DNA from: Rhizophagus irregularis
Taxonomy: Eukaryota; Glomeromycota; Glomeromycetes; Glomerales; Glomeraceae
Assembly: GCF_026210795.1 (NCBI RefSeq)
Contig: NC_089437.1
Span: 1,116,001 to 1,180,000 of the forward strand
Length of the DNA stretch: 64,000 nucleotides
Reading direction: 5' to 3'
Below the pieces are notes generated by a model, which worked only from the letters and a program-made list of their open reading frames with translations, ran no database searches and was not told where the DNA came from. Made by a program: the position numbers and the translations under genes. This document shows, piece by piece, positions 24,588-29,693 of the stretch. The first letter of the stretch is position 1, and every line of letters starts with the position of its first letter.

Positions 24588-26274
24588 ATGGCTTCATCTG
24601 TTTCAACGAACGATATGAGTGATCCCTTAAAACCATATATTCCTTCAAATGAAACCGCTGAGGACAAGCGTAGACGCGTAATTGCAGAAAAGGAAGCAAA
24701 AAAGAAAAGTGAAGCTATTGACAAACAAATTAAAGCTGAAAAGGAAAGACTAAATAAACAAAAAGTGGCAAGATTGTTGTTGCTAGGTAAATATAAAAAT
24801 GTTTGCATTAGTGATTAGTACTTGTTATTTTAATATTTTGACATTCTTATCATTTATTCAATCTTACAAATAGGTTCGTCTGAAAGTGGTAAAACAACTG
24901 TACTTAAACAGCTAAAAATTATTCATGGAAATGGTCTTGAGGATGAACGCGAGCAATATCGAAGAATTGTTCACCTTAATGTGCTTACTGCAATGAAGGC
25001 TTTAACCAACGCTCTTACAAGCTTTGGCTATACGTTAGATTCTAGCAATTTGATTCATCTCGAGAAGTTTAGTAGATTAAATTCAGTTAAAGATTCTTTG
25101 AACCGCAATTCTATTAGTGTTCAGGCAGGTGTTAAAGATTCTAGATTGAATGACAATGCATATCAATTATTCATGGAACATTCTGAAGCGATCGAGGCAT
25201 TATGGAAAGATCCAGCTATTGTAAAAGCTTATGAACATGCTAGCGAAATTGGTTTACAAGATTCGGCGAGATAGTAAGTGTACTGTACTCTTTCATGTAT
25301 CAATTCTGACATTTTTATTAATTCTAATTTTTTTTTTAGCTTTTTAGATAACGTGGATAGATTTACCGATAAGGACTATACACCTTCTGATGAAGATATC
25401 TTACAAGCTCGAGTTCGAACACTTGGCGTAACTGAACATCTTTTCAAAATAGACGGCACTACGTATAAGTAAGTATATAATAATGATAACACAATTTACG
25501 AAAATCAATGCTATATATTTACATTTAGTAATTCTTTTCTCTTCTTTTAGAATTTATGATGTAGGCGGTCATCGTTCTCAGCGACACTTTTGGGCGTAAG
25601 TTTCTTTTTTTTTTAATGTATTCTTTTTTTATATATATTTTTGTTCTGTAATAATTTATAATGTAATTACATAACCGACTTTAGTCCTTATTTTGATGAT
25701 GTGAATGCCATAATTTTCATGGCTGCTATCTCATCGTTTGACCAAACACTTGAAGAAGCTCCAAATGTTAATCGTATGGCTGATGCAATTCAATTGTTCA
25801 AAAGTATATGCAATCATGAAATGTTTGTAAATACGAGTATTATCTTGTTTCTTAACAAGATTGACATTTTAAAGCATAAACTTACTTATATTAAATTGAA
25901 GGACTATTTTTCTGATTACGAAGGTATACTTTATAAAATTTTCTTCTTTTCTTTTTTATTTTCTTATATATCTTTTACATCTTTAACGTATTATATAGGT
26001 GATAATAAATTCCAAAGTGTAACAAAATTCTTTCAAAAAACATTTATAAATTGTAATGAAAATGATGACAAGCATATTTATGTCCACCTTACACATGCCA
26101 CGGTAAATAATATTTATTCTATTTAACATTTTGATATTTTATCATTTTTAATGATATTAATCATTTGGCGTTTCATTATCTCTTACAAAGGATACAAAAC
26201 AAATGCGCGTTATTGTTGCTTCAGTGAACGATACAGTTCAGAGAATGAACCTCAAAGCTTCGGGTCTTATCTAA
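24588..26274 (+). CDS. Heterotrimeric G-protein alpha subunit, divergent
   Basis: Membrane-associated GTP switch coupled to receptors. Seven exons: 24588-24786, 24874-25273, 25340-25468, 25551-25595, 25685-25923, 25999-26102, 26191-26274; 399 residues. P-loop GSSESGKTT is at 67-75, the helical domain follows, then switch I ARVRTLGV with the Arg and Mg-binding Thr kept. Switch II DVGGHRSQRHFW is at 246-257, NKID at 315-318 and THAT replaces TCAT. Two departures stand out. His250 replaces the catalytic Gln of DVGGQ, and the N terminus (MASSVS) lacks the MGxxxS myristoylation motif and starts with a 50-residue charged helix. Similar divergent alphas are known in expanded fungal G-alpha families. 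Intrinsic GTPase is probably low. Confidence 0.93.
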
Positions 26275-26656: not shown

Positions 26657-28573
26657 TCAGATTTTAATATATTGCAGAATATTTTCAATTTTACATCCTT
26701 TTTGAATTTTATTATCCAAATCCTTTATTGTTACTTCACCTTTCGCAATTTCATTTTCACCTACAAATATTACATGTGAAGCATTTGTCTTTACGGTATT
26801 ACTTAATATATTTTTCAATGATGATTGGTGCGAAGAATGATAAAATAATGTCGGTATATCTTTATCACGTAAGAATTTGGAGAGGTTAAGCCCATAATAA
26901 TAAAGCTTATTATTCTTTGAGGAAATAATAGGCTCAGTTTCTGTTGAAAGATTTTCAGACTTTTCACGATCCGGTATTATTATAATTGCCATTGGTCTTT
27001 TTCTCGACGGTATAAAGTTATCATTTAATATCATTGCTAGTCTATCAATTCCAGCAGCCCAACTATTAAAAAATAATATTATTAGTATAAAATATATATA
27101 AAAAGATCTTATTTAAAGAAATTGTATTCGTACCCAATTCCAGGAACTTTTTCTTTTCCGCCCATGATTTGAACGAGGCCATCATACCTACCACCTGCTA
27201 ATACAGTTCCTTGAGCGGTCCCAAGATTAGGGTTCAAACACTTGAATTCAAATATTGTATTATCATAATAATCTAATCCCCTAACTAAACGGGGATTAAT
27301 TTTATATAATATATTTAAATCTTGAAGTCCTTGACAAACATCATCAAATCTCTTGGCAGATGTTGAATTATAATATTCAGTAATTGTTGGACAGTCTTGA
27401 ATAACTGGAGCATCTTTTGGATTTTTTGAATCCAAAACACGTAAAGGATTCGTTGAAATCCTTATTATTAGAGAATTTCAAATAATTAATATCTTCTAAT
27501 ATTTTAAAAATTTAGATAATTTTTGTTACCTTTTTGCGCTATCCTCTGAAAGATGGTGTTCATTTTTACGCAAATATTCTCTTACAACATCTCGATATTT
27601 TGTTCGAGATTCACTGTCGCCCAAGGAATTGATTTCAAGCTAATGCAATAAATTAAATTAAATTAATAACTTGCGGTTATAATACAAAATTTTTTAACTT
27701 AAATGCTTACTTCAATAGAATCACCAAGTCCAATCTTATTTAAAAATGTCCAAGCCATGTCAATTACTTCAATATCAGAGGTTGGATGTTCATGACCAAA
27801 CAATTCAACACCAAATTGTTCAAACTATTATTATGTGATATAATTTCCTTTTAGTAACAATTGCGAATATTACAATAAAATAATTTCTTTAGATGTTCAC
27901 CTGCCTTAACCTCCCTTTTTGGGGTCTTTCATGACGAAACATAGGTCCATAATAATAAAATTTTTGTGGGAGATCATAAATTAGATTATTGCTAATTAAT
28001 GCTCTAACAATACCTACGCCAAATATCAAAAGTAATAAATTAAGTTCAATTGTTTTTCAACTTCGGAACATTCATCGGGAACTTTATTCCTTACCAGCAG
28101 TTCCTTCTGGTCTCAAAGTTAACTTGTCGTCTCCCTTATCAACAAAACTATACAATTCTTTTCCAATTATATCAGAATCTTCTCCTAAAGTTCGTTCAAA
28201 AACTTGAGACAATTCTAATATTGGAGTGGAAACCTAACATAATATAAAAAATAAATAGATTATATAATTGTTTAGAATTCAATCTACGAAAGATTGATTA
28301 TATATCATTACATGATCATAACAATATAATTCCGCAATGGACGACGCAATTTTCAAGATATGACTATATTTTATATTTTCGCTTCCAAAACGGTCGCGTG
28401 TTCCTCTAATAGGTCGAGCGGGTTCAATTCTACCTGACGAATAAGTTTGCTCAAAATAACCGAATTAATTTCACTTAAACTGTTATAAGCCAAAGTTACC
28501 TATCAGTAATAACCTTCGATATGACTCTCTTTTGAAAGCCCTGCCATAATAATTGACCATGCGACTTAATCAT
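26657..28573 (-). CDS. Histidyl-tRNA synthetase, bacterial/organellar type
   Basis: Class II aminoacyl-tRNA synthetase charging tRNA-His. Eight exons: 28573-28500, 28429-28312, 28233-28095, 28013-27901, 27824-27711, 27639-27530, 27460-27134, 27062-26657; 466 residues. The motifs are those of bacterial HisS, not of cytosolic eukaryotic [25 protein letters not shown], motif 2 [48 protein letters not shown] and [15 protein letters not shown]. The C-terminal anticodon-binding domain follows. The leader ([16 protein letters not shown]) is basic and amphipathic, fitting a mitochondrial presequence. A second ATG at 28560, in another frame, also yields a basic leader if the acceptor four bases upstream is used. 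Introns and position show it is a nuclear gene. Confidence 0.92.
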
Positions 28574-28736
28574 TATTATTTTATTTATTTATTTTTTTTA
28601 TAGCATATAATCAATTTTAAAAATTTTATTTAACCAAAGTTTTTTCCGATCAGTTATTGAGCTATTTTGGCCAGAATCACGATTCAGTCGACTCGGAGAT
28701 TTTTTATAATAATAAAAGAATTCTGTTTGTTTTACT

Positions 28737-29693
28737 ATGGCACAAGAAAAATTAAATGGCGTGTCTGACGATTGGAAAAAACAGACAAAGCATATAAGTT
28801 TTCAAAATAGCAATAGTGCACCTAGTTTTTCTGACAATATTCTTTATATTTACAATACGGTATTTGAAGGGGAAATAAATTTGTCGCAATTTCCTAATTT
28901 AAGAAGAATCAGTTTTGCTAACAATGTCACTGTAAATAATTTGGAAAGTATTGACATTAGCGAAAACAAGGAGTTAAGCAAGATAGTGCTAAATGAAAGT
29001 GCCGCCCTATATCCTTTGAGGAATTCCAACTGTAATTTACTTATCAAAGAAAGGCAACTAAGTCAAGTTGTTGTAATGTATCATCAATTAATGTATGTAA
29101 ATGGTACAAGTGTTTGGTTAGAAAAATATAAGCTTTTGGGACAACAAGAATTATTACCTTACGTTTTGATTGAAAATGGTAAAAAATTGGAGCAATTAGA
29201 AGCAGAAATAGAAAAATTAAATCAAGCCATCGCGGAAAAGGACCAACAAATAGAAAGTTTGAAAAAGGAAAATGAAGAAACTCCAACTCTCAGTCAATTT
29301 CAAGAGTTAGTTGACATAGTATTTTCGCCTAATACTGATCTTGACTTTAATAAATTGAAAAAAGAAATCAAAGGGCTTAAACTGAAGTTTTATCTTCCTC
29401 ATTTTCAAAAAGAAGAAAATACCCTTAAAAAGTTAATAACCGATGCTAAAGAAAAAGCAGGCACTAACATGGGAAAGTTTTTGGATCTTCTTCTCCAAAT
29501 CCAAAAGCAAATATTTGAAAGACAACAAGAGAACGATTCTTTTGCTCAAGGCCAACTAAGTGCTTATCAAATTATTTTGCAGGAGAAATTGGACTATGAT
29601 GAACTGCAAAAAATTTTAACTGAACAGAAGAAGCTTTTAAAATTAGAACAACAACTACGCTTCTTGCAATCTGATGAAGAAGAAATAGAATAA
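28737..29693 (+). CDS. Intronless LRR-like / coiled-coil protein, lineage-specific
   Basis: Single exon of 318 residues in a window where nearly every other gene is split. Residues 15-95 show degenerate leucine-rich-repeat-like units (NLRRISFANNVTVNNLESI, DISENKELSKIVL). Residues 145-190 and about 255-318 are Gln/Glu/Lys-rich coiled coil (QLEAEIEKLNQAIAEKDQQ). I know no function. Proteins of this build, a short LRR-like head and a coil, are common in Rhizophagus and in its Mollicutes-related endobacteria, so transfer between them is conceivable; that is recollection and inference. No signal peptide or membrane segment. Starts 163 bp from the HisRS start on the opposite strand. Frame is clean to the TAA. 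Confidence 0.75.
   Translation: MAQEKLNGVSDDWKKQTKHISFQNSNSAPSFSDNILYIYNTVFEGEINLSQFPNLRRISFANNVTVNNLESIDISENKELSKIVLNESAALYPLRNSNCNLLIKERQLSQVVVMYHQLMYVNGTSVWLEKYKLLGQQELLPYVLIENGKKLEQLEAEIEKLNQAIAEKDQQIESLKKENEETPTLSQFQELVDIVFSPNTDLDFNKLKKEIKGLKLKFYLPHFQKEENTLKKLITDAKEKAGTNMGKFLDLLLQIQKQIFERQQENDSFAQGQLSAYQIILQEKLDYDELQKILTEQKKLLKLEQQLRFLQSDEEEIE

Follow-up and report, generated by a model that had tools for sequence, protein, structure and literature searches.

How does a fungus come to carry a bacterial-type histidyl-tRNA synthetase (HisRS) in its nuclear genome, and which tRNA would such an enzyme serve? The question is raised by a gene in a window of 64,000 nucleotides from Rhizophagus irregularis, the whole stretch of DNA that was analysed here. 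The initial annotation of this locus had offered two origins, a gene retained from the mitochondrial ancestor or an old transfer from a bacterium, perhaps an endosymbiont. Judged from its sequence, the gene quite probably encodes the mitochondrial HisRS of the fungus, an enzyme of alphaproteobacterial type that would charge a bacterial kind of tRNA-His, and we prefer an origin by descent.

Gene structure and leader

The gene and its surroundings were resolved into the following features:

26657..28560, minus strand: bacterial-type HisRS gene, coding sequence of 463 aa in 8 exons (splice model and profile matches)
28500..28560, minus strand: exon 1, basic leader, putative mitochondrial presequence
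28514-28573, minus strand: alternative first exon, with which exon 2 begins at 28449
28434..28499, minus strand: intron 1, 66 nt, GTAACT...TCAG, phase 1
28312..28433, minus strand: exon 2, in which the catalytic core begins, with PIRGTRD, a region that we take to be motif 1 (splice model, alignment)
28095..28233, minus strand: exon 3, contains LTLRPEGTA (splice model)
27901..28013, minus strand: exon 4, motif 2, Gln139 equivalent to E. coli Gln118 (splice model, residue comparison)
27711..27824, minus strand: exon 5 (splice model)
27530..27639, minus strand: exon 6 (splice model)
28311-28234, 28094-28014, 27900-27825, 27710-27640 and 27529-27461, minus strand: introns 2-6 (splice model)
27134..27460, minus strand: exon 7, contains AGGRYDGL (splice model)
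27063..27133, minus strand: intron 7, 71 nt (splice model)
26657..27062, minus strand: exon 8, last part of the catalytic core, then the anticodon-binding domain at the C-terminus (PF03129, residues 378-462)
28561..28736: intergenic stretch of 176 bp between the HisRS gene and a divergent ORF

Splicing yields a single frame of 463 aa that ends with a TGA stop at 26657. All seven introns (66, 78, 81, 76, 71, 69 and 71 nt) have GT...AG borders; the seven spliceosomal introns of a nuclear gene that had been read from the sequence earlier were thus recovered, with eight exons in one frame, and the three bacterial HisS motifs quoted at that time are all present in the spliced product (one of them corresponds to residues 101-113).

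The 5' end assumed in the initial annotation, position 28573, is the first ATG of the gene. From this ATG the frame is open with a GTTATT donor and closed with a GTAACT donor. As the predicted start we prefer ATG 28560 combined with the GTAACT donor, because similar donors open the remaining six introns (five with GTA, one with GTG). In this model the leader holds five K/R and one D/E among 21 residues, and it is basic from either candidate start, in agreement with the basic leader described before. Its helical moment lies at the 73rd percentile among the protein's own windows.

Genomic setting

The window is part of contig C9 (5.26 Mb) in an assembly of 146,748,485 bases and 32 contigs. The strand opposite to the HisRS gene carries part of a G-alpha gene at 25662-26126 (130 bits), and a divergent ORF of 318 aa on the plus strand (28737-29693, ATG at 28737), in which no Pfam match was found, adjoins the HisRS gene; the intergenic stretch 28561-28736 is a possible common promoter of the two. 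The coding sequence has a GC content of 33.2% with a GC3 of 20.9%, the introns have 20.5% and the window 28%. Nothing except the bacterial best matches speaks for bacterial contamination or an assembly artefact, while the seven GT-AG introns, the large contig, the intron GC and GC3 values and the nearby G-alpha gene all oppose it. This explanation was rejected as having a negligible probability, and the bacterial-type HisRS gene is a resident nuclear gene.

Family assignment and active site

On the hisS model TIGR00442, an NCBIfam equivalog, the product reaches 420.7 bits (cut-off 286.75, E 6e-126), and the Pfam models PF13393 (tRNA-synt_His), PF00587 (tRNA-synt_2b) and PF03129 (HGTP_anticodon) match above their cut-offs. 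Among solved structures the product matches 1kmm and 2el9, which we take to be E. coli HisRS, at 302 bits, compared with about 71 bits for 4g84 and 4phc, presumably human cytoplasmic HARS. The assignment to the bacterial type therefore holds. Of the E. coli positions that we presume to matter, 26 of 29 are identical in the fungal enzyme, including the equivalents of E83, R113, Q118, Q127, E131, R259, Y264, Y288 and R311, and, with intact class II motifs, the active site is predicted to be functional.

The motif-2 loop reads RPQKGR, and its Gln139 corresponds to E. coli Gln118, a position occupied by Gln in 135 of 135 alpha-type rows and in 62 of 63 gamma/beta rows (the remaining one has X). 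The fungal protein carries LRPEGT and not the eukaryotic LRYDLT-type motif. That fungal and animal HisRS read LRYDLT, as was stated earlier, is correct for human HARS and for the second HisRS of this genome, the two in which it was checked.

A second HisRS in the same genome

A Pfam search of the assembly for HisRS led to two places, the bacterial-type gene and contig C12. A search of the fungus's own genome with the bacterial-type protein gave eight matches at its gene and one weak match (E 0.35) on C12, but no further bacterial-type copy. The C12 gene, on the minus strand of L001 from about position 2012 downward, encodes an N-terminal WHEP domain (PF00458, 46 bits; MELLKQKIKEKGEQVRALK...), followed by SLRYDLT and YRRDQPAMTKGRMREF. 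Its partial product has human HARS as the best PDB match (536 bits), so that the eukaryotic-type enzyme for which a search had been advised is indeed encoded in this genome. With its 3' end incomplete, the C12 HARS scores 265.4 bits on TIGR00442, below the cut-off of 286.75; motif 2 is AMTKGR, the eukaryotic Met-Thr form, and identity to the bacterial-type HisRS amounts to 25% over 382 aligned columns. An in-frame stop lies 12 nt upstream of the ATG of the C12 HARS, and therefore a direct presequence like that of the mitochondrial form of yeast HTS1 is absent, although a presequence could be supplied by a spliced upstream exon.

Bacterial relatives

A scan of an 84,980-species genome collection gave at least 590 stretches, at least 586 of which encode relatives; among the best 80 of 586, which were kept, Alphaproteobacteria are on top (47%, 4e-120), and gammaproteobacterial sequences follow at about 1e-100 to 1e-90. 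Class and order names in the surveys below rest on the label of each survey's centre genome. In the class of the top Alphaproteobacteria-labelled MAG, 373 of 385 genomes matched, the best two among the matches listed with 378.5 bits (56%, residues 25-358) and 376.5 bits. Many of these 385 genomes match the fungal HisRS weakly (e.g. G013, 5.5e-13), which would fit carriers of the divergent Caulobacter-type HisRS. The class of Buttiauxella, which we take to be gamma plus beta in the GTDB scheme, matched in 112 of 114 genomes (best among the matches listed 310.6 bits), and the phylum of a Bdellovibrionia MAG in 36 of 39. A second look at alpha genomes already sampled matched 40 of 40, and at E 1e-60 matches came from 10 of 11 genomes in the order of the best alpha match and from 61 of 70 in that of a Rickettsiales-labelled MAG. 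None of the bacterial matches listed in any survey, those of the best-hit order and the Rickettsiales-labelled order included, exceeds 56% identity, and a recent bacterial transfer is therefore unlikely and was rejected.

Viral contigs yielded eight stretches and no HisRS relative in a single-protein scan, and one locus apiece, L011 and L225, in the alignment scans. L011 (positions 1-1677, IMG/VR) joins an RNA-phage-like polymerase stretch (YGDD) to a hisS fragment at the contig end that looks gammaproteobacterial by eye; it is probably an assembly chimera.

Phylogenetic placement

In a FastTree tree of 212 rows the fungal HisRS falls within an alpha-type clade of 141 rows (99) and within its 138-row part (99), inside which no well-supported smaller set contains it. 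An IQ-TREE analysis of 97 rows under a site-mixture model, the bootstrap of which was not fully settled, unites alpha-type and fungal sequences with 100/99 and an inner group of 77 rows with 99/81. There the fungal HisRS is joined to L159, from a 0.9-Mb genome, with 90/83 (long branches joined), and these two to L098 and L160 with 81/87; L098 comes from a genome of the order of the Rickettsiales-labelled MAG, but the row of that MAG, L085, has another position in the tree. With 24 long or AT-rich rows dropped, L159 among them, the clade of alpha-type and fungal sequences again has 100/99 in the remaining 73 rows, as has an inner clade of 54 rows, below which four forks have 74/88, 38/42, 76/93 and 28/0. 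The trees contain no firmly supported sister of the fungal HisRS (28/0 to 90/83). Its branch is long (1.04, 1.32 and 1.56 with 212, 97 and 73 rows), and its composition deviates from that of the alignment in the 97-row and 73-row trees. Bacillota were represented by one partial sequence, 1qe0, which we take to be S. aureus HisRS and which served as the outgroup.

Constrained placements were compared by AU tests, and none was rejected at 5%: p was 0.060 with gamma/beta (36.4 log units worse), 0.127 outside all alpha rows (25.2 log units), 0.134 with the outgroup (32.4 log units) and 0.435 outside the alpha crown (2.3 log units). A tree-free test used 22 sites at which 135 alpha-type sequences differ from 63 gamma/beta sequences: the fungal HisRS agrees with the alpha type at 13 of them, with the gamma type at three and with neither at six. 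From trees and sites together, an alphaproteobacterial affinity of the fungal HisRS is likely, its exact place being less certain.

For the phylogeny called for in the initial annotation, the alpha-type clade stands with 100/99, while the AU values of 0.06-0.13 leave other places unrejected. Judged against the HARS of this genome and human HARS, the gene does not belong inside HTS1. The two suggested origins are supported in part: a retained gene of the mitochondrial ancestor fits the alpha placement, with the same reservation from the AU test and with an old alpha donor also possible; of the endosymbiont origin, a betaproteobacterial donor appears disfavoured (the Polynucleobacter row is on the gamma/beta side, AU p 0.060), whereas an old, unsampled alphaproteobacterial donor is possible.

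The alpha-type clade of the 97-row tree also contains three Bdellovibrionota rows. HisS of L019/L142, L143 and L144, from the phylum of the Bdellovibrionia MAG, lies within this clade. In the 212-row tree the alpha-type clade also takes in L145, a row with a long branch. A transfer between bacterial phyla is suggested by these three, perhaps four, genomes.

Origin of the gene

Descent from the hisS of the mitochondrial ancestor is, in our judgement, the likelier origin. We prefer it because it explains alpha affinity, long branch, introns and core function together, although an old transfer explains these too. In that other scenario hisS would have passed from an alphaproteobacterial associate to a fungal ancestor, where it acquired introns and a presequence and became responsible for mitochondrial charging. 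We regard this as clearly less probable, yet as a serious competitor. Three trees place the fungal HisRS among the sampled alphas and not next to them, and its weakly supported neighbours (81/87) include L098, from the order of the Rickettsiales-labelled MAG, which would suit an intracellular donor as well, even if that MAG itself is found elsewhere. Early-diverging fungi are reported to acquire bacterial genes, and R. irregularis xenologs may have many introns (PMC11291939). However, no listed bacterial match comes closer than 56% identity and no sister is firmly supported, while the seven introns, the long branch and the core function in tRNA charging point to a very old gene; in the main text of a survey of horizontal gene transfer in R. 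irregularis no word begins with "histid" (PMC5982333).

By descent, the bacterial-type hisS would have come from the mitochondrial ancestor and been kept in this fungus, and in well-studied fungi and animals the ancestral hisS would have been replaced by a dual-targeted or duplicated HTS1/HARS. We are evenly divided on the stronger statement that a proto-mitochondrial HisRS is here still in its original job, paired with a G-1:C73 mitochondrial tRNA-His and orthogonal to the other HisRS/tRNA-His system of the cell. If true, the fungus would mark a state before the opisthokont HTS1/HARS assumed the mitochondrial role.

Proposed function and comparison with known enzymes

From its basic leader, intact active site and motif-2 Gln, the enzyme would be a mitochondrial HisRS whose partner is a mitochondrial tRNA-His of bacterial type. 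The motif-2 loop of HisRS is reported to covary with C73 (PMC9976931), and the Gln of bacterial HisRS to contact the discriminator C73, with a Met-Thr motif at this place in the main eukaryotic family (PMC10375062). Since one enzyme of this fungus is of the Gln type and the other of the Met-Thr type, the two should prefer different tRNA-His. Together with the basic leader, the two motif-2 types therefore make the simplest split one in which the C12 HARS serves the cytosol and the bacterial-type HisRS the mitochondria. The leader would bring the latter enzyme into mitochondria, where it would form histidyl-adenylate and charge a bacterial kind of tRNA-His (G-1:C73), and the C12 HARS would charge the cytosolic tRNA-His (A73, with G-1 added by Thg1).

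It is improbable that the bacterial-type HisRS is cytosolic or serves both compartments, with a leader that is no presequence. The statistics of the leader, a candidate presequence, are modest; against this reading, an ordinary cytosolic-type HARS is also encoded on C12, and the Gln-type motif 2 fits a C73 tRNA, whereas tRNA-His in the eukaryotic cytosol usually has A73. That the product is a HisZ-like regulator or another paralogue without catalysis is far less probable still. HisZ models do match the product, but the 148.9 bits on TIGR00443 are far under the cut-off of 271.65, an anticodon-binding domain is present and the active-site residues are kept, and HisZ identity was rejected.

The HisS family is known, as are nuclear-encoded bacterial-type mitochondrial synthetases as a kind. 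With bacterial HisS of the alphaproteobacterial type (TIGR00442) the fungal enzyme shares the full-length architecture, the Gln118-type motif-2 loop and alpha signatures, among them RTLG and FEF; it differs in being encoded by a nuclear gene with seven introns, in its basic N-terminal leader and in an insertion of 20 residues (about residues 366-385) that is absent from six compared alpha sequences. The divergent Caulobacter-type HisRS also occurs in some Alphaproteobacteria, but it is reported to read A73 without G-1 (PMC9976931), whereas the fungal enzyme has the C73-type Gln. Yeast HTS1, described as a single gene serving cytosol and mitochondria (PMC7600831), and human HARS/HARS2 catalyse the same reaction and belong to another HisRS branch, a member of which is separately encoded in this genome. 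Plants likewise have an organellar HisRS in addition to the cytosolic enzyme, but theirs is reported to be apparently of archaeal origin, with the Met-Thr motif in place of Gln (PMC10375062).

In many fungi and animals one HisRS is reported to serve both compartments (PMC10375062), and two HisRS of separate origins in one fungus would show that this rule is not general. Such a fungus would help to date the replacement of HisRS within fungi, and the pair of Gln-type and Met-Thr-type enzymes offers a natural test of joint change in synthetase and tRNA identity. Among the literature matches listed (titles and beginnings of abstracts, with few subscription papers covered) there was no report of a bacterial-type HisRS in fungi, and the literature gave nothing of use on the mitochondrial tRNA-His of R. 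irregularis.

A tRNA search of the whole window found none, and a tRNA-His pattern search of the fungus's own genome returned one match, with one mismatch. The COX1 search of the assembly found no complete mitochondrial contig and three short fragments only, which lie on nuclear contigs (G000:C1:6523829-6524014, G000:C18:4223505-4223687, 2691292-2691513) and are perhaps mitochondrial insertions.
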